Positions 7,759 through 49,187 of a stretch of DNA of 64,000 nt are shown in pieces. Below the pieces are notes generated by a model. It did no database searches. It was not told the DNA's origin and was given only the letters and a program-made list of their open reading frames with translations. Both the position numbers and the translations under genes were made by a program. The first letter of the stretch is position 1. Each line of letters starts with the position of its first letter. Origin of the DNA: Faecalicatena sp. Marseille-Q4148 (GTDB taxonomy: Bacteria; Bacillota; Clostridia; Lachnospirales; Lachnospiraceae); the NCBI GenBank assembly GCA_018228665.1, contig CP073692.1, forward strand, positions 558,001 to 622,000. Reading direction: 5' to 3'.

Positions 7759-8523
7759 ATGTATCAGAGAATTTGTATTACAGCGGTTACCGATCAGGGC
7801 AGCAGAAAAGAAAATCAAGATAACTTTCAAATTGACACAAAAGTACCTTATATTAGAGAAGATTATGCAGATGCAGTGGAAATGATGGAAGCTGATGAGA
7901 AAATCCATTTTGCCTGTGTCTGCGATGGAATTGGAGGAGAAACACTTGGACGGCTGGCAGCGCTTAGCGTACTGGAGATGACTGCGACTTGTTTAAAAAA
8001 TCAGACTTCTGAAGAAGAGCTTGCTGGTTTCGTAGAAAAAACTATGGATCATATTGCCAGGAAACTGGCACAGGTATATGAAAAGCTCAAGGAACAGGGA
8101 GGAACGACCATCGCAATGTTTGCCTGGAAGCAGGAACAGTTTTGGGCAGTGAACATAGGAGACAGTCCGATCTATCAGATTGGTGAAGATCGTATTACAG
8201 AATTAAGTGAAGCACATACGCTTGCAGGATACAAATTATCGGTCGATATCGTACCGGAAAAAGGCGATGAGCATATACTTTTGAACTATATTGGAAAGAA
8301 AGAACTATCAGGAAGCGAGATGATGCACACTTTTAAGGGAACGCTGCATCTGGGAGATAAATTTTTCCTTTGCTCCGATGGAATTTCAAAGTGTTTTGAC
8401 TGTGAGAAGATTTATCAGACTGTGAAGGAAAAGGGGGCTGACAGTGTTGCTGAATTGACAGAGCAGGCTGCAAAGGCTGAAAATTCCGATAATTGCACTG
8501 CTATGCTGATTGTCGCAGAATAG
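7759..8523 (+). CDS. PP2C-type Ser/Thr protein phosphatase (first of two)
   Basis: A 254-residue cytosolic metal-dependent phosphatase of the PPM family. Motifs in order are RKENQDNF (about 16-23), VCDGIGGE (54-61) with the metal-binding DG, GGTTIAM, NIGDSPIYQI, LCSDGIS and the C-terminal SDNCTAML with its DN pair, so all metal ligands look present. I chose the ATG at 7759 because gaaaggggagaaaac precedes it and the PP2C fold begins right there. It is the first gene of a block that also encodes a kinase, an atypical kinase, a VWA protein and a second PP2C, so it probably opposes one of those kinases. Confidence 0.9.
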   Translation: MYQRICITAVTDQGSRKENQDNFQIDTKVPYIREDYADAVEMMEADEKIHFACVCDGIGGETLGRLAALSVLEMTATCLKNQTSEEELAGFVEKTMDHIARKLAQVYEKLKEQGGTTIAMFAWKQEQFWAVNIGDSPIYQIGEDRITELSEAHTLAGYKLSVDIVPEKGDEHILLNYIGKKELSGSEMMHTFKGTLHLGDKFFLCSDGISKCFDCEKIYQTVKEKGADSVAELTEQAAKAENSDNCTAMLIVAE

Positions 8524-8582
8524 TAATTGATATCAGAAACTAGTATTAGTTTGAATAAAGGAACAGATGAGGAGGGATGAGC

Positions 8583-9620
8583 ATGGACAGGGAAAAGCAG
8601 TTGACTACGAAGATTTTCGATGTGCAGATCAGTCGATGTGAGGATATACAGGAATTTACAGATATGTATGAGGAACATAAATCCCAGTTTGGATCATGGG
8701 AATGCTTTCTTGCACCATATATCAAAAAGAGCGGTTATACCAAAAAGGAAATTGCTGCATTTTGCGGTGTCAATGAAAAAACCGGTCGAAATTTCTTAAA
8801 AAGGATTCCGTCTAAACGAGACAATGTGATCAAACTTGGAATGGTATTTGGCATGACGCGTGAAGAGATTGATTATATGCTTATGCATGAAGCCAGATTT
8901 CATAAGCTATATCCAAAGTCTTATGAGGACGCAATCTGGATTCATATGATCGAGCATAACGGTTGGGAAAAAGACGTGCCGATTCCGGTAGTATATGATG
9001 CCTATCAGAAGCGGTATCAGGATTTATATAAGGCCTATCAGAAAAGAAATGACATTCAGGCGCCTCTGGAGACACAGATCGCACTGTGGAAATTAAAAGA
9101 TACGGTGGAATTTGATCAGGCAATGAAAGAGATCATTCCTTCCATCACAGACGGATACAGAAAGTTGATTGATTTTATTGAGCAGCAGATGCGAAAGATG
9201 GATACATGTATTTCAAAATTTGACTTTCAGAATGATAAAAACAGTGTCAGTCAGATTTATTACCGGGAGATCAAAAATATCCGGGAGGAGCAGAAAATCC
9301 CATCCAGAATTTTTCTGATTGCCCTCGGAATCCACATGAATCTTAATGTGGAGAAGATCAATGAATTATTGGATTATGCAGGAATGATGCCTCTGTACAG
9401 CAAAGACGTTCTGGAATGTCGCTTGATTTTTTATCTGGAGAATCTGTATCTTTGTCATCCGTCCTACTTCGTGTTATCAGAAGAGATGTGCGATCTGATG
9501 GAAGCAGAGGATCATCTCGAAGAAGATGATCTGGTCCAGTATATATATAACCGTCTGGAAGAAGAAGAGATTCGTGCCGGAGAAGATCATATGTTGGAGA
9601 AGATGATGAAATTATTGTAG
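8583..9620 (+). CDS. Protein with two helix-turn-helix-like modules, unknown function
   Basis: A 345-residue soluble protein. I see an N-terminal HTH-like module (about 34-95: FLAPYIKKSGYTKKEIAAFCGVN...) and a second similar one (about 220-280: IREEQKIPSRIFLIALG...) followed by 'NELLDYAGMMPLYSKD', typical of HTH proteins found with bacterial kinases and VWA proteins. The repeated arrangement suggests an internal duplication. The C-terminus is strongly acidic. The start at 8583 is set by gaggaggg six nt upstream; the ATG at 8577 overlaps it. It may be a DNA-binding effector or a scaffold phosphorylated by the neighbouring kinase; neither is shown. Confidence 0.7.
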   Translation: MDREKQLTTKIFDVQISRCEDIQEFTDMYEEHKSQFGSWECFLAPYIKKSGYTKKEIAAFCGVNEKTGRNFLKRIPSKRDNVIKLGMVFGMTREEIDYMLMHEARFHKLYPKSYEDAIWIHMIEHNGWEKDVPIPVVYDAYQKRYQDLYKAYQKRNDIQAPLETQIALWKLKDTVEFDQAMKEIIPSITDGYRKLIDFIEQQMRKMDTCISKFDFQNDKNSVSQIYYREIKNIREEQKIPSRIFLIALGIHMNLNVEKINELLDYAGMMPLYSKDVLECRLIFYLENLYLCHPSYFVLSEEMCDLMEAEDHLEEDDLVQYIYNRLEEEEIRAGEDHMLEKMMKLL

Positions 9621-9651
9621 CAGATACAAAAGTCAAAGGAGAATGAGAGTC

Positions 9652-11115
9652 ATGTTATATGATGAATTGGAAAAATTAGGATATATGAAACCGAATGAGA
9701 GATATTATCTGGTGTTTCATACAAGTATCTTAAATTTTTCTCAGATTATGCTGGATAAGATTGCGAATGAACTGCCCTATAAGTGGCTTCTTCCGGAAAA
9801 TATATTTTATGAATTAACACTGTTAAAGCGTTCGAAGATGTTCGGGAAAAAGGCAGAACAAGTATTGAATCTTGCGAAAAAAAAGGATGCATTTAATGCG
9901 GATGGAAGTCCCAGACTGTGCTGTAATCTGGAGGATTTTTATGCACCGCAAAATGAAATCACACAGCTTGCAGAGAGATATACCTCGCTATGGTTATCTG
10001 CTCCAAATGTAAACTATATATTTATTTTCGGAAGCCAGCTAAAATTAAAAGAATTTCTTACATACGCAGCAGACAAGAAAAATTATTTCGTCTTTTTCCA
10101 TAACCGCTGGTCGCAAGATGGATATTCATCAGAGGATAGCATTACATCTGTTGCAACAGCAAAGAATTGGATCTCGCTTCTGGATTGTGAGCGGTTTGCG
10201 AAAAATGTCATAGAAGAAAAACGTATTTTGAAAAAGCTGGACACGGAGGCTATGCTTACAGCGCGAAATGCGGACGACGGATTTCTCAGATATTATCATA
10301 TGTCAGAAGACATTAACAGTGGTGGAGAGGGGAGGCTTTTCACAGCGGCAGAGGATCAGAATGTGCTCTTAAAGCTATATAAAGAAAAGCTGAGCGCCAA
10401 TCATTTGAAAAAGATTAAGCATTTGATTAAATTTAGTACAATGAATCATCTGGAGACTTATTTGAAATATGTTATGTTTCCAAAAGAGCTATTGTATGTA
10501 GAAGATGAACCGGTCGGTATTGGAATCACAAAAGTCATAGGATGCAGTTTGACGGATACGATTGTAGATCCGGATGCAGAAGCTGATCTGGTAAAAGTAA
10601 TTCAAGATTTGGCATTAATACTTCTGGAATTAAATCTGTGCCATATCCAAATCGCAGATTTAGACATGGATAATCTGATGTTGGATACTCACAGCAATGT
10701 CTATTTGATTGATACAGACAGTTTTCAATATATGCATTATGGTTCAGGAGTTCTGATCAGACCGGATTACAGGCACAAAGATCTCGTCAATAAAAATACC
10801 ATTTTATATTTGCCGATGCATCAGGATTTTGCTTTCTGTGTGCTGTTGTTTAAGCTTCTCGTATGTGGGACAAGTTCTCCCCTTTATCAAAAAGCAGCGA
10901 TTGAAGCCGCAGAGCAAAAACAGCTATTTTGGGGAGACAATTTTGAATTTCCTTATGTGGAAAATGCTTCGGAAAATCCAAATGTGAATCAATATCACAA
11001 CAGACGATGGAAAGATCTTCCGGAGAGACTCCAGCGTGCTTTCGCAGAGGCATTTCATTTCCGGCGTACCTTCAGTATCGGACATTTAATGAAAATCTTT
11101 GATGAAGAAGTATAG
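9652..11115 (+). CDS. Atypical protein-kinase-like protein with N-terminal PIN-like region
   Basis: A 487-residue soluble protein. Residues about 215-370 look like a divergent kinase core: glycine loop SGGEGRLF (223-230), a lysine in VLLKLYK (K241), a catalytic-loop equivalent IADLDMDNLML (D336 and N341 spaced as in HRDxKPxN) and LIDTDSFQY (D354/D356) in place of DFG. The His-Arg and the loop Lys are replaced, as in YegI-type kinase-like proteins. The first ~190 residues have alternating strands and helices with 'YLVFHTSIL' and 'LPENIFYEL', suggestive of a PIN-like fold without clear catalytic acidic residues. Start 9652 is favoured by aaaggaga 10 nt upstream. Confidence 0.7.
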   Translation: MLYDELEKLGYMKPNERYYLVFHTSILNFSQIMLDKIANELPYKWLLPENIFYELTLLKRSKMFGKKAEQVLNLAKKKDAFNADGSPRLCCNLEDFYAPQNEITQLAERYTSLWLSAPNVNYIFIFGSQLKLKEFLTYAADKKNYFVFFHNRWSQDGYSSEDSITSVATAKNWISLLDCERFAKNVIEEKRILKKLDTEAMLTARNADDGFLRYYHMSEDINSGGEGRLFTAAEDQNVLLKLYKEKLSANHLKKIKHLIKFSTMNHLETYLKYVMFPKELLYVEDEPVGIGITKVIGCSLTDTIVDPDAEADLVKVIQDLALILLELNLCHIQIADLDMDNLMLDTHSNVYLIDTDSFQYMHYGSGVLIRPDYRHKDLVNKNTILYLPMHQDFAFCVLLFKLLVCGTSSPLYQKAAIEAAEQKQLFWGDNFEFPYVENASENPNVNQYHNRRWKDLPERLQRAFAEAFHFRRTFSIGHLMKIFDEEV

Positions 11116-11171
11116 TAGTATTATTTGCGGAAAGCATTGTGCATAAAGTGTTTGAAAAGATATGAATAAAA

Positions 11172-11194
11172 ATAGGTGTTTCACAAACGCCTGT
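11172..11194 (+). other. Compact hairpin in the 107-nt gap before the VWA gene
   Basis: The arms ataggtgttt and aaacgcctgt form a 10-bp stem (two G-U pairs) around a 3-nt loop. No T-run follows, so it is not a standard terminator. It may act as an RNA processing or stability element within the operon; this is inference. Confidence 0.4.
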
Positions 11195-11222
11195 CAATAA
11201 ACAGAAGAAAGAGGGAAAAGAT

Positions 11223-11930
11223 ATGGGATGGAATGTAGAAGCTAAAAATTATGGGCCATCAAAGCGTATGCCGATCGGGATTGTGTGTGATATCAGCAGT
11301 TCTATGGAGGATGTAAGAGAGATACTGAATTGCTCTTTGAAAGAACTTTATAACATCGTAAGAGAGACGAAAAAGCTGGAAAAAAGTGTGGATCTGCTTG
11401 TCATTTTTTATAATGGGGAAGCAGAAGTCCGGGTGAATCTTGAGCCAGTGGAATCTATTGATCCTAATCGGTTAAGAATTGACCGGGTGACAGGCTATAC
11501 AGATACAGGAAAAGCTTTATTAAAAGCATTGGAGTTGTTAAATCAGAAGAAAAATGAATACAAATCAAAGATGATAGAGTATTGGCAACCAAACTTATTT
11601 TTGATTACAGACGGATATCCATGTGCATGGATGGGAGCGCCGGATGAGGAATACAGGAAAATTATGCGTTCTTATCAGGCTGCTGCCGAAGAAATCCACC
11701 GCCTGACAGACAATAGAAAACTGCAGTTTGCTGCGGCCGGTATCCAAAGAAATTCAAGATCAGAAACGTCAGCAAATATCCCGAAATTGCGGGAGTTAAG
11801 CGCTAATGTGGTATGTATTTCTGAAGATATTTCCGGAATGAAGACGATCAAAGACTTTATTAAACTAATCGGCGCTACTATGGTAAACAGAGAGACAGAG
11901 ATTGTAGATCTGATTCATCAAATAATGTAG
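11223..11930 (+). CDS. TerY-like von Willebrand factor A domain protein
   Basis: A 235-residue soluble single-domain VWA protein. The metal-ion-dependent adhesion site is intact: D23-I-S25-S-S27 (CDISSSME), a threonine in GYTDTGKALL (about 91-100) and D130 in LITDGYP. TerY proteins form conserved triads with a PP2C phosphatase and a protein kinase ('TerY-P' modules), and exactly such genes follow here, so it is likely a metal-dependent protein-binding partner of this signalling system. The start follows gaaagagggaaaagat. It is 22 nt from the second PP2C gene. No tellurite-resistance TerC/TerD genes are in the window. Confidence 0.88.
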   Translation: MGWNVEAKNYGPSKRMPIGIVCDISSSMEDVREILNCSLKELYNIVRETKKLEKSVDLLVIFYNGEAEVRVNLEPVESIDPNRLRIDRVTGYTDTGKALLKALELLNQKKNEYKSKMIEYWQPNLFLITDGYPCAWMGAPDEEYRKIMRSYQAAAEEIHRLTDNRKLQFAAAGIQRNSRSETSANIPKLRELSANVVCISEDISGMKTIKDFIKLIGATMVNRETEIVDLIHQIM

Positions 11931-11952
11931 AGAGTATGAGGTGAACAGAGCA

Positions 11953-13428
11953 ATGAAAATTTTACGATTTCTCCGAAAAGGGATCGCACATGAAGAATCC
12001 GGGACGGAATGTCAGGATGCGGCTGCATACATGCAGTACGAAGAGGATCTTGCAGTTCTGGTAATTTCTGATGGCGCAAGCCAGGCCGGATATGCTCGGA
12101 TCGGAGCAGAGTGTAATGTACATGCAGTTTTAGAACTGTTTCGTCAGATATCTGTGGAAGAATTTTTGGCAAAGACAGAAGCAGAACAAAAGCAAATGAT
12201 TTTGGGGCAGTGTCTTCGTGAAATTGCAGGAAAAGCGGATAATGTGCAGTGTTATGATCTGCGTCAGTTTTCTGCGACACTGGTATTTGCAGTGATCACA
12301 AAGGATCTGGTGCTCACAGGACATTTGGGCGACGGCGCAATTTATATGACAAATGCAAAACATCAGAGTTGCTTTTCATCAGAACCCGAGAATATCCAGG
12401 TGTCTTACCGTACCTATTTCACTGTCAGTAAGGACGCCTATGAGCATCTATTTCTTCAGACAGTCAAAAGAGACGAACTTCATCCGGCTATGGTTGTCAT
12501 GATGTCAGATGGTCCACAGCTGATGTTTAAAGACAGAGGCTTTGGAAGACCGGAAGAAACGGCAGAGGAGATGTCTCCGTTTCTTGTAAAAGGACAAGTA
12601 ACGTCGGATGAAGATCTGGGAGAGCTTTTAGACGCCATGACAGAACTGGAATCTGAGAAAATGGATGATTGGTCAATGTTGGCGGCAATACTTGAGGAGC
12701 AGGAACCTGAACCGGAGTCCGTAGTACCATGTGCAGAAGAACAGATGAAAGAACATGAAGAATTAAAAGAGGGAAAAAGAGAAGCTGTTCAAGAACAGAA
12801 GGAACCTGAAAAAGAGACACAGGAGAAACTGTTCCGGGAGAAAGCGTCTCAGGAAGGCTCTATTCAGAAAGAAACACCGAAGAAAGAACGCCGGGAAGAC
12901 AGGACAGAAGCGGCAAAACATGTGATCGCAGTTTCGGAAGCGCTGTATAAACATTATCGAACGACAATTGAAGATCCACAGGTGTTGGAAAAAATTCTGA
13001 AATATAATCACAAAGAATATCGGATCCTTAACAGAATATACAAAAGGAAGGATACATATGAATATACTGCACGCTGTGGAGCGGATCGCTATTATATTGT
13101 AATGATCCTAATGGATCGATATTTACAAAAATATCCGAAAACAGACTGGAAGAACCGACATGAGTTGGAAACACAACGCATTAGAGAAACATTTGCAGCA
13201 TTAAAGGAAGAAAATTTGAGGCAGAATAAGGAAACAGAATTAGATTTCTTAGAAGTCAGAATTAAGAACACAGACTGGGTATGGATGTTTTTGTTGATAG
13301 AAAAGAATACCGTTGTTCCAAAATCGATGCAGAACAGTTTTTCCATCGAGAGAGAACAGAGATGTATGTCAATCGAAGAAATATTTGTACATATGGAGAA
13401 AATTTTTAAAAATATGCTTAATCTGTAA
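11953..13428 (+). CDS. PP2C-family phosphatase with charged linker and C-terminal unknown domain
   Basis: A 491-residue soluble protein in three parts. Residues 1-235 are a PP2C-like domain (PP2C_2 type) with GTECQDAAAY, VISDGASQAGYA (D40, G41), SATLVFAV, GHLGDGAIYM, MMSDGPQL and DDWSMLAAIL, retaining the metal aspartates. Residues about 240-315 are a low-complexity Glu/Lys/Gln linker. Residues about 320-491 are a mixed alpha/beta domain with no family I recognise, containing 'YKHYRTTIEDPQVLEKIL' and 'TDWVWMFLLIEKN'. Start 11953 is preferred over GTG 11941 because gaggtg sits 10 nt upstream. It lies between the VWA and kinase genes, as in TerY triads. Confidence 0.8.
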   Translation: MKILRFLRKGIAHEESGTECQDAAAYMQYEEDLAVLVISDGASQAGYARIGAECNVHAVLELFRQISVEEFLAKTEAEQKQMILGQCLREIAGKADNVQCYDLRQFSATLVFAVITKDLVLTGHLGDGAIYMTNAKHQSCFSSEPENIQVSYRTYFTVSKDAYEHLFLQTVKRDELHPAMVVMMSDGPQLMFKDRGFGRPEETAEEMSPFLVKGQVTSDEDLGELLDAMTELESEKMDDWSMLAAILEEQEPEPESVVPCAEEQMKEHEELKEGKREAVQEQKEPEKETQEKLFREKASQEGSIQKETPKKERREDRTEAAKHVIAVSEALYKHYRTTIEDPQVLEKILKYNHKEYRILNRIYKRKDTYEYTARCGADRYYIVMILMDRYLQKYPKTDWKNRHELETQRIRETFAALKEENLRQNKETELDFLEVRIKNTDWVWMFLLIEKNTVVPKSMQNSFSIEREQRCMSIEEIFVHMEKIFKNMLNL

Positions 13429-13472
13429 GAAAAATGGAATGCTGCCGTCTGTGCAGCAGAATGGAGCACAGT

Positions 13473-14936
13473 ATGACAAGAGAAAAAATCAGTGAGATTT
13501 TAAAACAATATATAACCCCGGCGCTTGCCTTAGGGGATAAACTCGGGCAAGGTGCAATGGGAGAAGTGTATGACATAAAAGGACATTCCTGTGATGCGAT
13601 TTTGAAAGTGATTGACATTGAAGCGGCATTAGAAGAGCTACTGAAGGACATCAGCGGCTCTATCAGAGAAGTTGTATATCAGGATTATTACAAAAGGCTT
13701 TTAGAAAATACAAGAAAAGAAGTAAATTTCTTAAAGGAGCTACAGGGATGTGAGGGAATTACGAAACTGATCGCTGCATATGAGTTGGATGCTCCCCAAA
13801 AGTGTTTTTTTATTCTTCAGGAAAAATATCAGGAACTGGATATGTTTATCAGTACACAGAATCTGACACAGGGACTTTTGATTCAAATGGCGACAGATAT
13901 CCTGGAAACATTGGTGATCTTAGAGAAAAAACAGGTTTTGCACCGTGATATCAAACCTGCCAATATTTTTATTAAATGGGAATACGGCGCACCTAAATTT
14001 GTTCTTGGAGATTTCGGGCTTGCACGGACGGTATTATTTAAGGACGGGGAGGTAACAATATGTGGTACTCCGGCATTTATGGCGCCGGAATTGGAGCGTG
14101 GAATGATCCACGGTTATAACAGTGATATTTTCAGTCTGGGTGCGAGTCTGTTCTATATTATGACACAGGGCGACCTGCCGCAGAGATTTCATATGCGAAA
14201 TAAAACTCCATGTATCGAACAGGGTTCCAAAGAATTCCGGAATATTATCCTTAAGGCAATCAGGGTGGATCCGCGGGATCGATATCAGCACCCGTCTGAA
14301 ATGCTTCAGGCACTCCGCTCTTTATCGAATGCAGAGTATACGAGACCGATTATCTATAATAGATATGTATCTTTGGCCAAACAGGCAATTCTGGACGGAG
14401 ATCTCAAAACGGCGCAGCAAATTGCTGTGAAGGGATGCCATAACTGCAACAGTGCGAAAGAAGCGACGGCATGTTTTCGTATTTATATGTACATCAAAAT
14501 GAAAATAGAAAATGATTATGATCGGTTTCCGGAAAGTGAAGTGGTTCGCTTGAAAAAAATAGCAGACCGTGGTGATGCAGTGGCACAATATCTCTATGGA
14601 TTATATTTATTTGATACGAGGAGAGAAACAGATGGCATCGCATACATGCATCAATCGGCAGAAAACGGCTGTGAAATAGGCGGGTATGTCTACGGAAGAA
14701 TGCTTTGTCAGGGGTTTGTAAAACCGCCGGTAAACATTGCAGTGGACAGAGTGCATGGTATCAAGTATTTAGAGCATGCTGCGTTAAAGGGTTATATTCC
14801 GGCTATCCGGTATTTAAAGAGACTAAAAGAACAGCATTTGGACTACGTTCCGGATCGCGAAATTCAATCGCTGCTTCAAGTTGAGATTTTCCATTATGAT
14901 GAACTGAAGCAAATGTATATGATACCATTTCTATAA
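13473..14936 (+). CDS. Soluble Ser/Thr protein kinase with C-terminal Sel1-like repeats
   Basis: A Hanks-type kinase of 487 residues with all catalytic motifs: GQGAMGEVY (about 25-33), ATP-binding K45 (AILKVI), HRDIKPANIF (157-166), DFGLAR (180-185) and GTPAFMAPE (198-206). The C-terminal third has Sel1/TPR-like helical repeats (AQYLYGLYLFD..., GGYVYGRMLCQ..., GIKYLEHAALKGY). There is no transmembrane segment and no PASTA domain, unlike PrkC/PknB/Stk1. Start 13473 is favoured by ggag six nt upstream; ATGs at 13434 and 13461 are possible. A terminator follows, ending the first block of the signalling locus. Confidence 0.9.
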   Translation: MTREKISEILKQYITPALALGDKLGQGAMGEVYDIKGHSCDAILKVIDIEAALEELLKDISGSIREVVYQDYYKRLLENTRKEVNFLKELQGCEGITKLIAAYELDAPQKCFFILQEKYQELDMFISTQNLTQGLLIQMATDILETLVILEKKQVLHRDIKPANIFIKWEYGAPKFVLGDFGLARTVLFKDGEVTICGTPAFMAPELERGMIHGYNSDIFSLGASLFYIMTQGDLPQRFHMRNKTPCIEQGSKEFRNIILKAIRVDPRDRYQHPSEMLQALRSLSNAEYTRPIIYNRYVSLAKQAILDGDLKTAQQIAVKGCHNCNSAKEATACFRIYMYIKMKIENDYDRFPESEVVRLKKIADRGDAVAQYLYGLYLFDTRRETDGIAYMHQSAENGCEIGGYVYGRMLCQGFVKPPVNIAVDRVHGIKYLEHAALKGYIPAIRYLKRLKEQHLDYVPDREIQSLLQVEIFHYDELKQMYMIPFL

Positions 14937-15018
14937 TTGGGAAAGCAAAACGATATGTATTAGAGCGATTCGGTTTAGAAAATGACAGCACAGTAAAATT
15001 CAAGAAAGGATATTTTTA

Positions 15019-15073
15019 AAAATAACACTTCCGGATGTTCGGTTATCATACAGACAATCGGAGGTGTTATTTT
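15019..15073 (+). terminator. Intrinsic terminator after the kinase gene
   Basis: aaaataacacttccg (15019-15033) pairs with cggaggtgttatttt (15059-15073) over 15 bp including two G-U pairs, with a 25-nt loop and an AT-rich 3' side. It separates the phosphatase/kinase block from the FHA/SEDS/PBP block. Confidence 0.75.
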
Positions 15074-15140
15074 ATATTAATTGTGTTTTATGTTTTCTGC
15101 ATAGAAATGATTCCGACAGGTCTATGCAACAAGGTATTTT

Positions 15141-15169
15141 TTAACAGAAAAGATTTTTAGTTATGTTAT
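15141..15169 (+). promoter_or_regulatory. Possible promoter of the FHA-SEDS-PBP operon
   Basis: ttaaca (15141-15146) and tgttat (15164-15169) are separated by 17 nt, about 40 nt before the FHA start. Both boxes are moderate matches to sigma-A consensus. The terminator just upstream makes a promoter in this gap necessary. Confidence 0.4.
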
Positions 15170-15208
15170 CATGGAGATATCAAAAACAACAGAAAGAAGG
15201 TATGATTT

Positions 15209-15826
15209 ATGTCAACATTTATTTCTCAAATTGCAGTACTTGCGATTATTATTATCATTATGGTAGTGATTTTGTCGCTATTTGGTGTGATCCGCCCGAA
15301 AACAAAACAGGATGTATTGAAACAGATGGAAGGTTTGAAGAAGGGATCTGAAAAAGAGAAGAAAATGGAATTAGAAAAGGAGATATTTTCGGCTGATTTG
15401 AAAACAGAAATTATGTCCTTTTGGGTTCTGGAACAGTTAAACAGCGAAGATAAAGTAGTGAAAAGTTTTCATATTACGAAAATTCCGAAAGAAGGATTGA
15501 TTCTTGGAATCGGAGATGACTGTGATATCCAATTAGAGCCTTACAAATATATCGGTCATCGGCACGCTGTGCTTGGTCAGGATGAAAAAGGGATGTTCCT
15601 TCAGGATATGAATTCCACAAACGGAGTTTACAACAGTGAGCAGAAGAAAGTACAACAGTTGGACGTCAAAGATGGAGTTGTATTTTATCTTGGCAATGCA
15701 AAAATGCAATTTCGAGCAGTAAATCCGTTTAAGCGTGAACCAAGCGACAGGAATCTAAAAAAAACAGTTGATCCGACATCAGGATTTGAACAGGAAGAAA
15801 CAGTTGTCCGGGTAAAACGACTTTAA
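15209..15826 (+). CDS. Membrane-anchored FHA-domain protein
   Basis: A 205-residue protein: one N-terminal transmembrane helix (about 7-28), a charged linker, an FHA domain (about 86-170) and a tail ending in EETVVRVKRL. The FHA motifs HRHA (117-120) and NSTNG (135-139) are clear. However, the usual GR arginine is replaced (GIGDDCDI) and the usual serine of SRRH is glycine (GHRH), so canonical phosphothreonine binding is doubtful. FHA proteins usually recruit phosphorylated partners; here it would sit at the cytoplasmic membrane face beside the SEDS/PBP pair encoded next. Start follows agaaagaagg by 8 nt. Confidence 0.88.
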   Translation: MSTFISQIAVLAIIIIIMVVILSLFGVIRPKTKQDVLKQMEGLKKGSEKEKKMELEKEIFSADLKTEIMSFWVLEQLNSEDKVVKSFHITKIPKEGLILGIGDDCDIQLEPYKYIGHRHAVLGQDEKGMFLQDMNSTNGVYNSEQKKVQQLDVKDGVVFYLGNAKMQFRAVNPFKREPSDRNLKKTVDPTSGFEQEETVVRVKRL

Positions 15827-15877
15827 TTAAGAATTTTTCGGAAGAGATTTTGGAAGAGACGAAGGGAGAGAAAAGAC

Positions 15878-17290
15878 ATGCCAAAGATGAATTTAACATA
15901 TTATTGGACGAATTTAAAAACAGAAATGCAGGATCCGACTTTCAGAAAAAATCTTCTGGCGCTGATTGCCGTAAAAATTATGCTTTTGTGTCTCGCGGCC
16001 GCGAAGGGAGTGTTGGATAGTTATGCGACAATCTTTTTGCCCGCCGGTATCGTCTCACTTCTCCTACTTTTTGGTACCGCCGCATTAAGATCTGATCAGA
16101 AGATTACTGTTTTGGTTCTCATTCTGCAGGAAATTGGGACATTTATACAAGTATTCGTCTACAAAGGTTCGCTGACCAAATACATTCTTCTGCAGATCAT
16201 TGCTTTTTTTGGGGGAGTGCTTTTATGTGCTGCTGTTATCCTTTTACAGAAACGAGTCACATACAAACAGCAATGGATGCTTTGTCTCATTACGGTTACG
16301 GCTCTGTATCTTGTATTATTTCTCTTTGGAAGTAATATCAATGGTACGCGGGCATGGATCTATATCGGCGGTATGTCTTTTCAGATTACAGAGTTTACAA
16401 AATATCTCAGTATTTGTGGGATGGCGGCAGCACTTTTGGGAGAGGAAGAAGAGAAGAAGAAATTATTCAGAATGTTCGCTTTTGTATTATTGAATGGAAT
16501 CTGTCTTACAATGATCAAAGAATTGGGAACGCTGTTTTTGATTCTTCTATGCTTTTTCTTATTTACATTTTTATTTATCCGTCAGTTAAAATATTTCTTC
16601 ATTTCGTTCTTTACAATGGTCGGACTTCTGGCGGCAGGTATTGGGGGAGTATATTTTCTTTCTCGATATGACCACCCGGGAAAAGTAGATTTCGTATTTG
16701 TGGAAATGGCAGCTGCCGTTTGGGGGAAACTCAAAAACCGCATTACAATTTTGACAGCGCCAGAAAGCATGGATCCATTCGGCAGTGTACAGCAGGCATT
16801 GACAGCACAGAAGGCAATCCGGCTTGGGGGGATTCTCGGATCTTCTTATGAACTGCAGATACCAGTACAAGAAAGTGAGTATGTGTTTGTTGCAATGATA
16901 TTAAAATTAGGACTTTTGATGGCTATCGTTGTACTGATTTTATTTTTACTGTTTCTTTTTGCAGGTATCAAAAATTCAGAATATCATGTATCGCACAAGA
17001 AAACAGTATGGGATGCTCCCGGTGCGATTGAAGAAATGACTGCCAATGGATTTGTGTATACCATTTATCTTCAGTCGTTAATTGCAATGCTAGGGACAAC
17101 AAATGCGTTTCTTATCATAGGCGTAGCAATTCCGTTTCTTTCGGCAGGTGGATCAAGTCAGATGGTGGCATTTGCTATGGTGTGCTATCTCATCTACACA
17201 CGGAGAGCGATTTCTCATGCCGCTTACGATAAAACAAAAGAAAGGAGGGAGGCTGTATGCAGACGAAAAAAAGTAACGCTCAACGAGTAA
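15878..17290 (+). CDS. SEDS family glycosyltransferase (RodA/FtsW-like), signalling-linked
   Basis: A 470-residue polytopic protein with about ten membrane helices. SEDS hallmarks are GTRAWIYIGGMSFQITEFTK (family norm G..RWI.lG...fQPSE..K) and PFLSAGGSS near the C-terminus. SEDS proteins polymerise glycan strands from lipid II together with a class B PBP, and such a PBP is encoded next with a 34-nt overlap. At the position of the conserved extracellular Asp (TDFIF in the other RodA of this window) it has Glu (SEYVF, E334), and the following Glu pair is absent. It is therefore a divergent SEDS protein; a gene pair with the PBP is certain, activity is inferred. Confidence 0.87.
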   Translation: MPKMNLTYYWTNLKTEMQDPTFRKNLLALIAVKIMLLCLAAAKGVLDSYATIFLPAGIVSLLLLFGTAALRSDQKITVLVLILQEIGTFIQVFVYKGSLTKYILLQIIAFFGGVLLCAAVILLQKRVTYKQQWMLCLITVTALYLVLFLFGSNINGTRAWIYIGGMSFQITEFTKYLSICGMAAALLGEEEEKKKLFRMFAFVLLNGICLTMIKELGTLFLILLCFFLFTFLFIRQLKYFFISFFTMVGLLAAGIGGVYFLSRYDHPGKVDFVFVEMAAAVWGKLKNRITILTAPESMDPFGSVQQALTAQKAIRLGGILGSSYELQIPVQESEYVFVAMILKLGLLMAIVVLILFLLFLFAGIKNSEYHVSHKKTVWDAPGAIEEMTANGFVYTIYLQSLIAMLGTTNAFLIIGVAIPFLSAGGSSQMVAFAMVCYLIYTRRAISHAAYDKTKERREAVCRRKKVTLNE

Positions 17291-18606
17291 AAGCGGTTCT
17301 GTCCGTGATTTTGTTTATCATTGTGTGTTTTCTCTATTACCTGATCATCGAGTCCGGTGTGATTCCGGGAGCGGACAAAGATGTGGATGCCAAGATCGCA
17401 CAATTAAAACAGACAGAAGAGGCAAAAAAAACAGTGGAGGGCGCCATCATCGACCGCAATCAGGAAGCAATCACACAAGCAGAAGAGCCTGGAACTCCGG
17501 CGATTTGTTTGTTTCCGGAAGCCTATTCTTCTCTTATCGGTTATCAGTCTCACAGATACGGCAATTCAGGGATCCGAAAAATCTATTCTTCGGAACTGCT
17601 GCTGGGCGGAAAAGATGAGGCAGGGGCAACAATCGAATTGACAACAGACAATGCTCTGCAGACATTTTGCTATCAACTATTAGGAAATCAGGTTGGAAGT
17701 ATTGTGATCATGGAGAATCAGTCTTCGCAGATTCTGTCAATGGTCAACCGCTCCGATGAAACAATCGAATATAATGTAAATGAAATCGATAAGCTTTTTG
17801 ATACCTATAAGGAGATTCCGGAATTCTTTTATCATAGAGCATTGCTGGCCCAGGATCCTCCGGGCTCTACCTGGAAAATAGTTACGGCTGCAGCCATGCT
17901 TGAAAATGGAATGGATGATTTTGTTTATGAAGACACGACCGGAGAATATCATGGAATCCGAAATGCAGGTCAAGTACCGCAGGGACGAACCGATTTGGAA
18001 AAAGCACTTGTGACCTCTTCCAACACCTATTTTGCTAAGGCCGGACATATTCTCGGCGGTGCAGCGTTAGAAGAAAGCGCTTCCAAATTTCTTGTCGGTG
18101 AGACGCTTCCGTTGGATTTTACTGTGCTGACCTCGCAGCTTGATCTTGAATTCTATCAGCGTGAGCTTACAGAGCAGACAGCGTTCGGGCAGGGAAGAAC
18201 GACGATCTCACCTCTTCAGATTGCCATGATTCTTCAGGCAGTTGTGAACGATGGTAAGATGCAAAAACCGTATCTGATCAGCAAGATCACAGACGATGGG
18301 AAGGTCATTCGGGAAGGAAAAAGAGAGATCTTGAGTACCGCAGTCGCAGAGAAAACAGCAGACAGGCTCAAGGAATATCTTCGAAAGACAGCCGAGAGTT
18401 ATGGCTATGAGGAAGATGCCTACGGAACGGTTTATGCGAAGACCGGAACGGCTCAAATCTCATCCAAGCAGTATAATCATATTTATCTGGTGTTCGCAAC
18501 AGAAGAATATACCGGAATCATTTCTATGGACCGTTCTTCAAAAAGCAGCAGTTCTTTAATCCCGCTGAGTCAGGAACTGCTTGATTATCTTCAGAAAAAT
18601 ATGTAA
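17257..18606 (+). CDS. Class B penicillin-binding protein (PbpA-like transpeptidase)
   Basis: A 449-residue protein with one N-terminal membrane helix (about 13-32), a short N-terminal domain and a transpeptidase domain. The catalytic motifs are S204-T-W-K207, S254-S-N256 and K395-T-G-T398. The size and short N-terminal part recall actinobacterial PbpA, which pairs with RodA in the pknA/pknB locus, rather than the 978-residue PBP2 encoded at 44.5 kb. It crosslinks peptidoglycan outside the membrane. Start at 17257 follows gaaaggagggaggctgt and overlaps the SEDS gene by 34 nt, implying coupled translation. Confidence 0.92.
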   Translation: MQTKKSNAQRVKAVLSVILFIIVCFLYYLIIESGVIPGADKDVDAKIAQLKQTEEAKKTVEGAIIDRNQEAITQAEEPGTPAICLFPEAYSSLIGYQSHRYGNSGIRKIYSSELLLGGKDEAGATIELTTDNALQTFCYQLLGNQVGSIVIMENQSSQILSMVNRSDETIEYNVNEIDKLFDTYKEIPEFFYHRALLAQDPPGSTWKIVTAAAMLENGMDDFVYEDTTGEYHGIRNAGQVPQGRTDLEKALVTSSNTYFAKAGHILGGAALEESASKFLVGETLPLDFTVLTSQLDLEFYQRELTEQTAFGQGRTTISPLQIAMILQAVVNDGKMQKPYLISKITDDGKVIREGKREILSTAVAEKTADRLKEYLRKTAESYGYEEDAYGTVYAKTGTAQISSKQYNHIYLVFATEEYTGIISMDRSSKSSSSLIPLSQELLDYLQKNM

Positions 18607-18620
18607 AAGGGGAAAATGCT

Positions 18621-19319
18621 ATGTTATTTGTTACAGGGGACACTCACGGCGATCATGACAGATTTTTTAAAGAGAATGAAAAACCGGGAACAGGAGATAC
18701 ATTAATCATCTGTGGGGATTTCGGATATCTGTTCAGTGGCAGTAAGCGGGAACAGGAGTATCTGAATACGCTTACCTCCCTTCCATATCAGATACTTTTT
18801 GTGGATGGAAACCACGAGAACTTTGACCTTCTGGAAACGTATCCGGTACAGAAGTGGTGTGGAGGGAAGGTTCACATGCTTCGACAGGACAAGCACGGAA
18901 TCCCGAAAGTCATCCATCTGATGCGCGGGCAGGTTTTTGAAATGAAAGGGAAAAAGATATTTACCTTTGGCGGCGCTTATTCTATTGATAAATATAGCCG
19001 AAATCCCGGTGTGAGTTGGTGGAGCCAGGAAATGCCGACCGATGAAGAAATGCAAGAGGCAATCAAGAATTTAAAAAGGCATCATTTTCAGGTGGATTAT
19101 ATTGTAACCCACACTGCTCCGGAAGATACGATGACAAGATTTCATCCATATCATCCGGAGGAGCAGCGGTTAAATAATTTTTTAGAGTGGGTAAGGGAAA
19201 ATACCGCCTACAGTCACTGGTATTTTGGACATCTTCATCAAGATAAAGACCTATGGAGGAATCAAAGTGTTCTGTATCAGGAGATTAGAAATATGGAGAC
19301 AAATGAGAAGATTGTCTGA
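18621..19319 (+). CDS. Calcineurin-like metallophosphoesterase
   Basis: A 232-residue soluble protein with the metallophosphoesterase motif series GDTHGDHDRF (6-15), CGDFGYLF (31-38), DGNHENFD (about 61-68), THTAP and GHLHQD. These supply the two-metal site. The family includes protein phosphatases, nucleotide hydrolases and phosphodiesterases, and the substrate is not readable here. It lies 14 nt downstream of the PBP gene, so is probably co-transcribed with the FHA/SEDS/PBP genes; a third phosphatase in this locus is possible but unproven. Confidence 0.85.
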   Translation: MLFVTGDTHGDHDRFFKENEKPGTGDTLIICGDFGYLFSGSKREQEYLNTLTSLPYQILFVDGNHENFDLLETYPVQKWCGGKVHMLRQDKHGIPKVIHLMRGQVFEMKGKKIFTFGGAYSIDKYSRNPGVSWWSQEMPTDEEMQEAIKNLKRHHFQVDYIVTHTAPEDTMTRFHPYHPEEQRLNNFLEWVRENTAYSHWYFGHLHQDKDLWRNQSVLYQEIRNMETNEKIV

Positions 19320-19437: not shown

Positions 19438-21570
19438 ATGAAGTTAATAAATATTTCAAAAATATATCACAATAAGCATTCTGATGTAACTGCACTAAAT
19501 CATTTGAATTTAGAAATAAATCAAATGGGGATTACCGCAATTATCGGTCCGAGTGGTTGTGGAAAGACAACGTTACTTCATATCTTGAGCGGGCGGGAAA
19601 CTGATTTTGAAGGGGAAAGAATTGTCCAGGGTAATATTGAGGTAATTGAACAGGATATTATACTGTTTGAAAAAATGAGCGTTTTAGACAATTTGAAGAT
19701 GGTTAGCGATAATTTCGAAGAAACGGAGCAGTTATTAACACATTTTCAAATGGAAGAGCATAAAGAGAAGAAAATAAAGAACTTATCTGTTGGACAAAAA
19801 AAGCGAGTACAGATTATTCGTTCACTGCTAAATCATCCGGACTACCTACTGTGCGATGAACCAACCTCTTCATTGGATTATGAGAATGCAGAGGCTGTAA
19901 TGCAGATGCTTTGTGAAATTAGTCAGGAGATCAGTGTTGTTATTGTAACGCACGACAGAGCCATTGTCGATCATTATGCCGATCAGGTTATCAAAATGCA
20001 AAAAGGATGTATTGAAAGGATCGAGGTTAAAAATGTAAAACAGCAATTTGTACCGGTAAATCATGCAGTCGAAAAAAAGTCAGTAAGGAAACACTTCGAT
20101 TTGTTTTGTAAGATTATTTGCTCAAGAGTTGGTGAAATACTTTTTTTGACTATACTTATATTTCTGATGTGTATTTCTCTTTTTAGCTCATCATTATTCC
20201 AGAGTGTGAATCAAACCGTGAATGATAAAGGAAAGTGGCGAACTGGAGAAAATATAATTACATCACAGCCAAACAAAGGAAATAATATTTTTCGAGATTC
20301 TATTGATGAAAACGATATTGAGAAACTTGAATATTCTTCAGGAGCATTTTACTATGATTTGTATTCAGCAGATGATATTCAACTTGTGAAAGACAATGTG
20401 GAAGAAGTGATCGGATATCGGTGTGGGTGGAATATACACTTATTTAGTCAGCATGGAACATGGATGCCTCGTATTTACTATGATCGTATCATTGAATTGG
20501 TAAAACAAGCAGATTCGGAGGTAGAAAAAACCGGACGATCTTATACAGAATATGAACTTTATTTAAAAAAATATGTGGATTCGATGAGTGAAGAAGAAAA
20601 ACGTAATGCCAGCCAATATTATACGACGGATTTTAGAAATCAGGAAAGAATCAATAATCATACAGAAGTATATTTAGAAGATGAATTTCTTAGATTTGCA
20701 CCATTTTCATCAGGAGAACAAGTCGCGTTTTATCAAATATTTGATCAATACCAATTACCGATACGATATGGAAGGTGGATGGAGAGTGATCAGGAAATCG
20801 TTGTACCTTATAATGTTGCTGTACAGATGCAGGAATTGAACAATCTGTCATCTCCGGAAGAGATTATAGGACAGTCTTATCCGGTGTATTTGCCGAAGAA
20901 TACAATAGGCGTACCGAGTAATGAAGATAAAATTAAAAAAGTATGCTCTTTTACAGTTGTAGGAATTACATATTATGGGCATGAAGATGAAAAACAAATT
21001 TTTTTACGAGAAGGTATTTGGGACAGACTGCGTTCAGATTTTTATGAATTTCAAGATGATGTACAGTATCAGTATGTAGATTTTATCGTAGATGAAACTG
21101 CAAAGGCAGAGGAAGTAGCTGGGAGAATAGATAGTCTATTAGAAAGTGAGGAAAGTCATTTTGTGACAAAATCCGGCTCCCAAATTATCAAAGAAGATTA
21201 TCAAAATGCATCGATATTCCGTATTTTTGTATGGCTGTTATGTATGGGAATGGTAATATTTTTAATTATAAGCCATATTGTCATTCGAAAAAGAGAGAAA
21301 AAAGAAGCTGCATTAATGAGGATATATGGTTACCGGCCGATTCTTATTACACTTTGGAAGGTATTTGGAATATTTGCAGTTGTGGGAATTCTTCAAATCT
21401 TATGCTTACCATTTATCAGTGAAACTTTGAATACATTTGCTTCATCACTTGGGTTTGAATATATGCTGAATAAAGATGTGCGAGGATATCTATTTGCATG
21501 GAGCATCAGCCTTATCCTTGTTCTTTTGATTGAATTATTCTTTCAGAGAAAACGAAGTGGAGGTGAGTAG
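19438..21570 (+). CDS. MacB-like ABC transporter: ATPase fused to four-TM permease
   Basis: A 710-residue protein. The N-terminal ATPase has Walker A GPSGCGKT (37-44), signature LSVGQ (116-120) and DEPTSSLD (140-147). One membrane helix follows at about 231-254, then a large extracytoplasmic domain (about 255-590) and three further helices near the C-terminus, the topology of MacB/FtsX-type mechanotransmission transporters. The next gene, starting immediately after this stop codon, has the same layout, so they likely form a heterodimer. Such transporters export peptides or lipoproteins or give antimicrobial resistance. The gene is AT-rich compared with upstream genes. Confidence 0.85.
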   Translation: MKLINISKIYHNKHSDVTALNHLNLEINQMGITAIIGPSGCGKTTLLHILSGRETDFEGERIVQGNIEVIEQDIILFEKMSVLDNLKMVSDNFEETEQLLTHFQMEEHKEKKIKNLSVGQKKRVQIIRSLLNHPDYLLCDEPTSSLDYENAEAVMQMLCEISQEISVVIVTHDRAIVDHYADQVIKMQKGCIERIEVKNVKQQFVPVNHAVEKKSVRKHFDLFCKIICSRVGEILFLTILIFLMCISLFSSSLFQSVNQTVNDKGKWRTGENIITSQPNKGNNIFRDSIDENDIEKLEYSSGAFYYDLYSADDIQLVKDNVEEVIGYRCGWNIHLFSQHGTWMPRIYYDRIIELVKQADSEVEKTGRSYTEYELYLKKYVDSMSEEEKRNASQYYTTDFRNQERINNHTEVYLEDEFLRFAPFSSGEQVAFYQIFDQYQLPIRYGRWMESDQEIVVPYNVAVQMQELNNLSSPEEIIGQSYPVYLPKNTIGVPSNEDKIKKVCSFTVVGITYYGHEDEKQIFLREGIWDRLRSDFYEFQDDVQYQYVDFIVDETAKAEEVAGRIDSLLESEESHFVTKSGSQIIKEDYQNASIFRIFVWLLCMGMVIFLIISHIVIRKREKKEAALMRIYGYRPILITLWKVFGIFAVVGILQILCLPFISETLNTFASSLGFEYMLNKDVRGYLFAWSISLILVLLIELFFQRKRSGGE

Positions 21571-23361
21571 ATGTTTTTGAAATTACACAATGTACACAAA
21601 CATTTTGGAAAAACATTTCTCTTTCAAAATGTAAATCTTGAATTTTCAAAATGTGGACTTTACTTTTTGACAGGGGAAAGCGGAAGTGGGAAAACTACAC
21701 TTTTAAATATCATTGCCGGATATGAAAGAGCGGATGGTGAACGAATACTTTCTGATGATATTTCCATTGCCTGCATTTTTCAAAGTTATGAACTGATAGA
21801 AGAATTAACTGTCCGTGACAATCTATATCTTTATCAAAATGTGTTTCGGGAAGGAGAAACGGAGTATTCAAAAGAAATCATAGAAGAACTTGGACTTGAA
21901 GAAGTGCTGGAGCACTATCCAAAAGAGCTTTCCGGCGGACAAAAACAACGTGTCGGAATTGCGAGGGCATTGCTATTGCACCCCAATATGATTATATGCG
22001 ATGAACCAACAGAAGCGTTAGATGTTGAAAACAAAGAAAAAGTTTTACAATTATTAAAAAAGCTTTCGCGTCATATGATTGTTCTCATTGCTTCACATGA
22101 AAAAGCAATTTTAGAAGAATATTATGACTACCATTATGAAATTTTAGATAAAAATGTTATATGTACGGAGAAACGGGTTGCGGGAGAAGAATGTATTGCT
22201 TCGAAAATGAATGAAGTCCTTGATCTTAAAAAAGTGGATGTATATCTTTGGAAAATGATAAGAAAAAGTACAGTTATGTATTCTGCAATCTTTGGTGTGG
22301 TTTTGCTTGTTACCGTGATTTTTGCACAGGTAAATCATCAGATTTTCAAAGAAAGAAAACAGATAAGTTCCTTGAATTATGATGTTGTGTATCTTTCTGA
22401 CGAAGGCGGTGATAATGAAACATTGAAAAAGGAACTGCCGCTGGATTCTATTAAAAATTCGTATCTTCAGATACCGTTCTCATTTTGGTTTTATGAAGGA
22501 AAAGCTTACAAGCCGAAAATATTTCCATATATCAGTAACCGGAGTAACGTTGAAATACTGGGAAAGGCGAGATTAAATGAAAATGAGATTTTAATCAATG
22601 GGTATGCCGCAGACAAAATGAAAGAAACATTGAAATGTAGTTCACAAGATCTTTTAGGAAGAAAACTTGAATTGAGTTATATTATTGAGAAAGAGGAGTA
22701 CCCGATTATTTTTGAAATCGCAGGAATTGTGCAGGAAGAAGATGTCAATGGCAGAATGAATCTATATTATAATTATGACTATCTAAAGCAGTTCCTGCAG
22801 GAGAAAGAATACTTTACAGGAATGAGTCAATATGACTATTTATGTAAATATCATAGAGAATATGCTTTGGAAGTAAATGAAAAGACTGTTTGCCGGACAT
22901 TTTATGATCAATTGACTTCGATAGACATGAAAGTTTATCACAGCATTTTTTCCAATATGGATGAATTGGGAAAACAAAAAGAAATTTATCAATTGGTATT
23001 TCAAGTCATTCAAATCATTTTATTCATCTTTACTATATTATATGTACTCTTTTATAGTTTGAAAGACACAAGAAAAAATAGGAAGAATCTAAGTATTTTA
23101 ATATCTATGCATATACCAATGCGTGTAATAAAGAAAAGGTATTTTATAAAAAAAGTAATTACTATGACAATCGCAATGATATTAGTTATGGGAGAAATAG
23201 TCAGCTATACACTGATTTCTCGTGAGAACACTATGTTCTTTCAATATATTAGCTATGTAATTGGAGTCTATGTGTTCTATATCATTACACTCATAATATC
23301 ATTAAAATCATTTAGAATCTCCAAAGTTTCAGATATACTAAAAGATAGTAAGGATAATTGA
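21571..23361 (+). CDS. MacB-like ABC transporter, second half (ATPase-permease fusion)
   Basis: A 596-residue partner of the preceding protein. Walker A is GESGSGKT (35-42), the signature LSGGQKQRVGIARAL and Walker B MIICDEPTEALD. A membrane helix lies at about 230-252 (VMYSAIFGVVLLVTVIFAQ), followed by a ~230-residue extracytoplasmic domain and three C-terminal helices. The ATG abuts the TAG of the upstream gene (21568-21570) and gtggaggtgag lies in its end, so both are translated together. Lactococcin-972-type bacteriocin loci carry related ATPase/permease pairs; no precursor peptide was found here. Confidence 0.85.
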   Translation: MFLKLHNVHKHFGKTFLFQNVNLEFSKCGLYFLTGESGSGKTTLLNIIAGYERADGERILSDDISIACIFQSYELIEELTVRDNLYLYQNVFREGETEYSKEIIEELGLEEVLEHYPKELSGGQKQRVGIARALLLHPNMIICDEPTEALDVENKEKVLQLLKKLSRHMIVLIASHEKAILEEYYDYHYEILDKNVICTEKRVAGEECIASKMNEVLDLKKVDVYLWKMIRKSTVMYSAIFGVVLLVTVIFAQVNHQIFKERKQISSLNYDVVYLSDEGGDNETLKKELPLDSIKNSYLQIPFSFWFYEGKAYKPKIFPYISNRSNVEILGKARLNENEILINGYAADKMKETLKCSSQDLLGRKLELSYIIEKEEYPIIFEIAGIVQEEDVNGRMNLYYNYDYLKQFLQEKEYFTGMSQYDYLCKYHREYALEVNEKTVCRTFYDQLTSIDMKVYHSIFSNMDELGKQKEIYQLVFQVIQIILFIFTILYVLFYSLKDTRKNRKNLSILISMHIPMRVIKKRYFIKKVITMTIAMILVMGEIVSYTLISRENTMFFQYISYVIGVYVFYIITLIISLKSFRISKVSDILKDSKDN

Positions 23362-23465
23362 TTTTATAAGTTACTTTTAAAATGGGAAGAAAGAATGTAA
23401 GAAAAATTGTTGCTGTTCCACTGGGAAGAAGATATAAAATAACCAAAACGAAAGGAGAATACCCC

Positions 23466-24215: not shown

Positions 24216-24217
24216 AT

Positions 24218-27781: not shown

Positions 27782-27864
27782 TTTCGCATCCCCAGTAATG
27801 AGTTGCTATTTGGCATTTAGATTGAAAACGAAATTATTTATTGAAAAATAAACGGAGAAAAAAT

Positions 27865-48974: not shown

Positions 48975-49187
48975 ATGAAAAAAAGAGCTTCAGTTCCAAT
49001 CGCAAAAGAACGCTTGAGATCACTGCTGATTTCAGACCGGATCTGCTGTACAGAGACTGCAATGGAGCAGCTGGAAAAAGAGTTATATCTGATTCTTTCC
49101 AGATATATAGAAATTACAAAAGAGGAATTTGAAGTTCAGGTAACACATACACACATACATATCAAACTTACAGGAGAAGAAATTTGA
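48975..49187 (+). CDS. minE: Cell division topological specificity factor MinE (short)
   Basis: A 70-residue protein directly after minD. It keeps the N-terminal 'AKERLRSLLISDR' region that stimulates MinD and a C-terminal beta-strand with 'YIEITKEEFEVQVTHTHIHIKL', but is shorter than the common 85-90 residues. MinE drives MinD release from the membrane. Its TGA overlaps the rodA TTG start (ttga, 49184-49187). Confidence 0.9.
   Translation: MKKRASVPIAKERLRSLLISDRICCTETAMEQLEKELYLILSRYIEITKEEFEVQVTHTHIHIKLTGEEI

Follow-up and report, generated by a model that had tools for sequence, protein, structure and literature searches.

Introduction

Several described systems resemble the locus considered here. 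In actinobacteria, fhaA, fhaB, pstP, rodA, pbpA, pknA and pknB stand together in one locus, as set out in parts of PMC6554272 and PMC11898655. TerY-P triads combine a VWA protein, a PP2C phosphatase and a kinase, and passages of PMC11090510 describe them as a conflict system. The subject of this article is a group of ten plus-strand open reading frames (ORFs), named g1 to g10, at positions 7759-19319 of a 64,000-nucleotide stretch of the Faecalicatena sp. Marseille-Q4148 genome (Lachnospiraceae; contig CP073692.1, positions 558,001 to 622,000), hereafter called the window. Like the actinobacterial pknAB locus, this group unites a PP2C phosphatase, a Ser/Thr kinase, an FHA protein and an adjacent pair formed by a SEDS protein and a class B penicillin-binding protein (PBP). 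Like the TerY-P triad, it contains a kinase, a VWA protein with a MIDAS motif and a PP2C in a row (g3-g4-g5), which are joined here to a wall synthase. Comparison with distant genomes indicates that part of the group forms a recurring core, within which the triad is embedded.

Two further systems are relevant. Section 29 of PMC7159879 places a theme of kinase, PP2C and vWA proteins beside DO-GTPases in actinobacteria, among conflict systems; the main text of that article does not contain the words RodA, FtsW, transpeptidase and penicillin. In Listeria, FtsW2 and RodA3 are accessory SEDS proteins beyond the housekeeping set, and portions of PMC6686043 describe their induction by some antibiotics that act on the wall. 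The window resembles this case in carrying an extra SEDS gene on top of the housekeeping set, but FtsW2 and RodA3 belong to the CesR two-component regulon, and those portions mention no adjacent Ser/Thr kinase genes. An exact-word search of open-licence literature returned no paper joining TerY, PP2C and vWA to FtsW, although a comparable word search for TerY, PP2C, kinase and VWA missed PMC11090510, and none on a Lachnospiraceae operon of FHA, FtsW, PBP and kinase genes. Conflict-type kinase/VWA/GTPase systems and peptidoglycan synthesis are thus not joined in the open-licence papers searched.

A core shared with three distant loci

Three genomes, designated G333, G189 and G461, carry relatives of the locus whose genes share about 23-33% identity with those of the window. 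Gene profiles built from these three genomes were compared with the 182 window ORFs of at least 60 amino acids (E<=0.1). The PP2C profile matched only g1 (1.2e-18), the profile of a helix-turn-helix (HTH)-like protein only g2 (1.4e-13), and the Ser/Thr kinase profile only g6 (1.1e-9). The SEDS profile found g8 at 2.2e-38 and also a second SEDS gene at 49184-50314 (4.1e-21); in the same way, the PBP profile found g9 at 1.6e-78 and a second class B PBP at 44540-47476 (2.7e-24). Profiles of the VWA, FHA, GTPase-like, reverse-strand kinase and large proteins had no match among these ORFs. Since g1, g2, g6, g8 and g9 are matched by the distant profiles and g3-g5 are not, and since g7 agrees in its position and in its layout of a transmembrane (TM) segment followed by FHA, the shared core, judged by sequence comparison, is PP2C, HTH-like protein, kinase, membrane FHA, SEDS and PBP, that is, g1-g2-g6-(g7)-g8-g9.

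The three loci came to light in different ways. When 397 genomes of the family were searched for g2-family proteins, 15 matches with E below 1e-19 were obtained in 14 genomes, and one of these 15 loci, L143 in G333, also held FHA, SEDS, PBP, PP2C, kinase and VWA genes. A SEDS profile including g8 and the G333 protein (threshold 1e-36) then matched two of the 397 genomes, G333 and newly G189. When G189 was also included and 392 genomes of the order were searched at a threshold of 1e-33, 81 genomes matched, among which G333 and G461 (4e-68) stood out. Thus, G189 and G461 were found by SEDS profiles regardless of their neighbours. The locus appears rare and patchy, with 2/397 genomes in the family (G333 itself being part of the profile) and two clear members among the 392 of the order; the two samples overlap, and these counts are lower bounds, as thresholds were strict and about four candidates were scored per genome. 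Additionally, P0003, P0012 and P0019, each on a single 12,008-base contig, suggest a second locus of the window type.

In G189 the order is GTPase-like gene, large protein, HTH-like gene, TM-FHA (read by eye, with no Pfam match), SEDS, PBP, reverse-strand kinase, PP2C, kinase and VWA. G461 has the same gene set and order, and G333 shares this order, from which that of the window differs. Where the window has its triad, the distant loci carry the GTPase-like gene, the large protein and another VWA gene. With their GTPase-like gene, kinase, PP2C and VWA, G333, G189 and G461 recall the DO-GTPase/GAP1-N2 systems, unlike the window, where the GTPase-like and large-protein profiles match 0/182 ORFs. 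DO-GTPase2 is sub-threshold in G333 and G461 and absent at 0.01 in G189, and the large proteins of G333 and G461 have no GAP1 Pfam match. All three distant loci also have, between PBP and PP2C, a further small kinase-like gene that runs on the opposite strand (L143 14519-15250, L153 6693-7529 and L204 11845-12666).

The SEDS proteins of these loci also belong together. In a 56-row tree, g8, P0019, P0020 and the proteins of G333, G189 and G461 form one signal-linked clade with support of 100/100, present in 100% of 200 bootstrap trees; an earlier quick tree had given it 98-99. P0019 and P0020 are placed in this group by sequence, and the position of G333 inside it is weak (71/47). Branches are long, so that the exact root is unsure; the PBP tree, with long branches as well, was not relied on. 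The clade stands apart from the common Lachnospiraceae SEDS-PbpA pair, and signalling genes are present in all four of its readable loci (window, G333, G189 and G461).

The first-pass annotation, made from the window alone, had joined phospho-signalling to an FHA-SEDS-PBP unit and had read the locus as an actinobacterial cluster fused to a TerY-P triad. The linkage itself recurs in the three distant genomes. The fusion does not describe it well: the shared set leaves out g3-g4-g5 and g10, and the triad lies inside the core. Ten genes as one conserved unit were rejected as a description, with g3, g4, g5 and g10 unmatched in the distant loci.

Modules that occur alone

The components of the locus can also be found apart, which bears on whether two or three unrelated modules merely became neighbours by chance in the variable region that separates miaB from mutS. 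The PbpA dimerisation domain is present in 293/299 genomes. Twenty PbpA-type loci, hand-picked from the matches listed, were compared by BLAST at 1e-3: PP2C, VWA and HTH-like matches occurred in 0/20, L157 had a kinase match at the edge of its stretch, and the stretch of L156 ended before the SEDS gene. In the 19 loci with SEDS, the two upstream ORFs showed no FHA pattern. The genes upstream of the common pair are presumably ZapA-like and U32-peptidase-like. This pair resembles g8-g9 in that SEDS adjoins or overlaps a PbpA-type PBP; it differs in lacking these signalling neighbours and in its separate SEDS clade. At the level of the order, 20 of the strongest SEDS matches were taken, some with short stretches of 4-16 kb, and the 19 other SEDS stretches held SEDS and PBP matches only, without PP2C, VWA or HTH-like genes.

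The signalling parts occur independently too. A g6-type kinase lies within three ORFs of the g2-family match in 12/15 loci (stretches of 7-20 kb), and L137 shows a run of g2-type gene, FHA (read by eye) and kinase. In the stretches read, these HTH-like modules lack SEDS in 14/15 loci (L129-L143). Five of the stronger matches to the g3 kinase (L144-L148) have VWA and PP2C in 5/5 and SEDS in 0/5. A neighbourhood search, proposed earlier as the check on the locus, therefore gives a divided answer: SEDS-PbpA pairs, TerY-P-like triads and HTH-like-kinase modules all occur alone, and signalling genes accompany SEDS in each of the four clade loci.

These solitary modules, together with the terminator-like hairpin between the two blocks of the locus and a Monoglobus FHA-SEDS-PBP run without annotated protein kinases, speak for chance juxtaposition. 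However, the core recurs in three genomes despite its low identity, two of them found via SEDS alone, and the SEDS of the recurring loci form their own clade. For the locus as a whole, juxtaposition by chance is thus very improbable; for the core it is largely refuted, for g3-g5 it is possible, and for g10 it is likely.

Signalling genes of the core

The earlier gene listing was recovered by the ORF table, Pfam and motif reading, apart from a Sel1-repeat label. The g1 gene (7759..8523) encodes a soluble PP2C phosphatase (PF13672, 8.2e-11) with motifs DGIGG, SDG and DN. The next gene, g2 (8577..9620), encodes an all-helical HTH-like protein with homologues P0011-P0017, for which a fold search gave no match better than E 0.77. 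Among these homologues, P0017 (564 aa) carries PP2C and a g2-type HTH-like domain fused in a single chain. The g6 gene (13473..14936) encodes a Ser/Thr kinase with complete catalytic motifs (PF00069, 1e-28) and a repeat-like C-terminus, for which the Sel1 label is without Pfam support. In PADLOC, g6 is related to 36 families at 0.01, with mad6 (2.6e-35) the best among the matches listed.

The description of a soluble kinase without PASTA domains holds: g6 has no TM-like segment and no PASTA Pfam match. This separates it from the TM PASTA kinase of actinobacteria, and g3 likewise lacks a PASTA match. The actinobacterial PstP-type phosphatase is a TM protein, whereas neither g1 nor g5 has a TM-like segment. 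Further differences from the actinobacterial locus are the additional HTH-like, VWA and triad genes, the presence of another SEDS-PBP pair, and rarity. The genes g1 to g6 follow one another with gaps of 10-107 nt. A gap of 272 nt then separates g6 from g7 and contains the hairpin (15019..15073, plus strand; -24.8 kcal/mol, z -5.68).

The embedded triad

By the same comparisons, g3-g4-g5 is a separate TerY-P-like unit embedded within the core. No counterpart of these three genes was found by BLAST or profiles among the genes of G333, G189 and G461, and g5 is not matched by the core PP2C profile from the distant loci. The g3 gene (9643..11115) encodes a TerY-P-type kinase preceded by an N-terminal domain. 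Pfam does not detect the kinase, which is recognised by an AlphaFold model and a fold search; a Pkinase Pfam match is seen in 4/10 rows of the family alignment. The kinase fold extends to the C-terminus (residues about 200-490), and the sole TM-like stretch lies inside it. A zinc ribbon or OB fold, C-terminal in TerY-P kinases, is absent in g3 (no Pfam match), and the N-terminal domain is additional.

The first 190 residues (window 9643-10212) show, in predicted secondary structure, an alpha/beta order like that of PIN, so that a PIN-like order of strands and helices may be proposed. His26 and Glu57 are invariant in the ten-row alignment, and the acidic set that we take to be usual for PIN domains is absent. 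The domain has no Pfam match, and no PIN entry stands among the fold matches listed, which are mostly driven by the kinase.

A profile of the g3 kinase domain matched 16/397 family genomes, over the kinase part only, and several weak matches among them resemble g6 more. Full-length g3 was found in none of the 397 genomes and in 0/16 and 0/50 others, and a scan of genome contigs with the g3 profile gave no match. The g4 gene (11223..11930) encodes a TerY/YegL-like VWA protein (PF00092, 1e-5) with the MIDAS motif DISSS/TDTG/TDG. In tblastn it matches plasmid VWA genes, some annotated as yegL or TerY-C, at identities under 35%. The g5 gene (11941..13428) encodes the PP2C of the triad (PF13672, 3.8e-29), and this protein is extended at its C-terminus by about 280 aa.

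The FHA-like protein and the SEDS-PBP pair

The g7 gene (15209..15826) encodes an N-terminal TM-like stretch (residues 1-33) followed by a degenerate FHA domain (PF00498, 4.5e-8). This layout is that of actinobacterial FhaB, and the match to the FhaB model (5.7e-10, 39.5 bits) lies below the 125 cut-off. For comparison, the structure 3po8 (TB39.8, Rv0020c) was used, which we take to be FhaA. In this alignment g7 has Ile101, Gly116 and His117 in place of the Arg, Ser and Arg of the phosphothreonine-binding triplet. The triplet is defined as Arg-Ser-Arg/Lys in passages of PMC4157861, which list 3poa, of the same sequence as 3po8, as Rv0020c. Read by eye, the FHA of G333 keeps Arg with Ser changed to Ala, and in G189 and G461 both residues are altered (G461 being hard to align). 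Because the triplet is lost, in contrast to actinobacterial FHA proteins, a canonical phosphothreonine-reading FHA was rejected for the window, and a logic in which the mark set by a kinase is read by FHA probably does not apply here. As a separate observation, P0035 (576 aa) carries FHA and SEDS domains in one chain.

The g8 gene (15878..17290) encodes a divergent SEDS polymerase (PF01098, 2e-22), for whose homologues 7,998 candidates were scored. Of the structures used for alignment, 6bas is presumably the D255A form, as Ala at 255 is read from the two sequences. At the D255 column of 6bar/6bas g8 has Glu334. The column holds Asp in 33/35 aligned SEDS proteins, and Glu only in g8 and in its 99% copy P0018. 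The g8 protein belongs to the fold family and lacks the catalytic Asp of extracellular loop 4. FtsW D297A is inactive according to part of PMC8765783, in whose text no D297E was found. The loss of the triplet and Glu334 together disfavour a copy of the actinobacterial PknB/FHA circuit.

The g9 gene (17257..18606) overlaps g8 by 34 nt and encodes a class B PBP with a short N-terminal domain (PF00905, 1.2e-39). Its motifs PGSTWK, SSN and KTGT are complete, and it is 33% identical to the PBP of G333. The PbpA dimerisation domain PF21922 scores 0.028 in g9, below the cut-off, against 3e-10 in the PBP of G333, 0.053 in that of G461 and none at 0.01 in G189. As a SEDS gene and a class B PBP gene are also found elsewhere in the window, and G461 keeps the common pair too, g8-g9 is an extra pair. 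Apparent natural fusions of SEDS and class B PBP were also seen: single ORFs of 998 and 936 aa in L169 (G061) and L173 (G235) match both queries.

Glu334 invites the thought that the locus is degenerating or regulatory, with g8 serving only as a PBP partner or sensor and no longer polymerising glycan. The restriction of Glu to g8 and P0018, with Asp retained in the relative P0019, fits this. However, neither g8 nor P0018 has an interrupted reading frame, and the motifs of the PBP are complete, which makes such a state quite improbable.

Genomic setting

The MiaB protein of the window is nearest to Lachnospiraceae-type records (83% and below), and the best 80 of 590 relatives were used for comparison. 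The window itself has 25 kb between the end of miaB (6995) and the start of mutS (32118). Of the 80 relatives, 36 have mutS no more than 1.5 kb from miaB and 10 have it at a greater distance. It was not seen in the other 34, and in 18 of these the sequence reached 10 kb past miaB. Linkage of the two genes is thus common and not general, and an insertion between them is partly supported. In ten relatives (L005, L007, L028, L048 and others) 1.7-9 kb separate miaB and mutS, so that variable cargo seems to be accommodated at this junction. None of the 80 miaB stretches (3-22 kb; tblastn, 1e-4) holds relatives of g1-g8 or g10; g9 matches in 7/80 are common SEDS-PbpA pairs.

Next to the locus, 19438-31558 holds an ABC transporter gene cluster with a GC content of 0.31-0.37 (2-kb windows, 20-32 kb) against about 0.39-0.45 around it, and this cluster was probably acquired separately. 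The region showed no flanking direct repeats. In limited searches, relatives of g2 and g3 were absent from viral contigs, g3 from phage records and g8 from plasmid records; these searches give no evidence of an origin from phages or plasmids. The last gene, g10 (18621..19319), encodes a calcineurin-like metallophosphoesterase (PF00149, 3.6e-13) that matches PDC-S10 in PADLOC at 2e-11. It had been counted as a third phosphoesterase of the system, but BLAST against the genes of G333, G189 and G461 gave it no match at E<=0.1, and it is probably a passenger.

Proposed role

The locus probably encodes an accessory wall synthase of the SEDS-PBP type, controlled by a kinase/phosphatase switch and used conditionally to build or repair wall when the envelope is stressed or attacked. 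In such a scheme, g8 and g9 would form a dedicated peptidoglycan synthase beside the housekeeping SEDS-PBP pairs, with g8 still polymerising despite Glu in place of Asp. The g7 protein could tether g8-g9 in the membrane as a scaffold without reading phosphothreonine, and g6 and g1, working through the helical g2 as their partner, would control how far g2 and/or the cytoplasmic regions of g7 and g8 are phosphorylated, thereby switching g8-g9. The g3-g4-g5 triad may act as a second input, a place taken in distant relatives by the GTPase-like gene, the large protein and the other VWA. The stimulus would be envelope stress or attack: given how rare and patchy the locus is, and given its association with conflict-type triad or GTPase-like modules, stress or defence is likelier than housekeeping growth. 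As sequence comparison indicates, what is kept together in evolution is the kinase/PP2C pair, the PBP with complete motifs and the membrane FHA-like anchor. The earlier idea of phosphorylation-controlled wall synthesis or an envelope-stress system therefore survives in the recurring gene link and loses its FHA reading logic.

Several points weigh against this accessory synthase. The window and G333 were chosen via their signalling genes, which leaves G189 and G461 as the sole loci to test the link without bias. The g7 protein finds a relative only in the FHA of G333, at 1e-3, and is missed by the FHA profile from the distant loci; without its triplet, the route from phosphorylation to SEDS-PBP is not given by FHA. 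Given Glu334 against a conserved Asp, g8 may be weak or inactive. The hairpin splits the locus into two blocks, which need not share a transcript. In Monoglobus (L224 12362-15347, a record filed as plasmid), the run of FHA, FtsW/RodA and PBP genes stands without annotated protein kinases, and an incomplete 29 kb gene table lists neither protein kinase nor PP2C; its SEDS falls outside the signal-linked clade, and its FHA retains Arg and Ser (read by eye).

The locus might instead be a conflict system proper, in which the triad or the GTPase-like module senses phage or a wall-attacking toxin and SEDS-PBP, as the effector, remodels or seals the wall. Passages of PMC11090510 and PMC7159879 class TerY-P modules and DO-GTPase systems among conflict systems, the locus is rare and patchy among family and order genomes (as lower bounds), and it sits in the 25 kb stretch from miaB to mutS. 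Even so, no PADLOC model matches g1-g5 or g7-g9 at 0.01, no set of partner genes is found, and the models matching g6 and g10 look generic for kinases and phosphoesterases. The SEDS-PBP motifs indicate synthesis rather than killing, and g2 and g3 have no relatives in the viral contigs searched. A defence function of this kind is consequently rather unlikely.

Conclusions

Returning to the accessory synthase, it can tentatively be suggested that the locus represents a new accessory class, in which a SEDS-PBP synthase is the effector of a conflict-type phospho-switch with exchangeable inputs (triad or GTPase-like module), and an FHA-like anchor has become a plain dock that has lost phosphothreonine reading. 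The link from kinase to SEDS-PBP is a central question of wall biology, studied largely in essential actinobacterial loci, such as that treated in parts of PMC6554272. If this reading is true, the locus, which is rare and probably dispensable and brings its own synthase, kinase and phosphatases, would make that link testable by simple gene removal. Two sharp differences from the textbook model, the loss of the FHA triplet and the change of Asp to Glu in SEDS, can themselves be tested. The locus would also join two fields, conflict-type kinase/VWA/GTPase systems and peptidoglycan synthesis.

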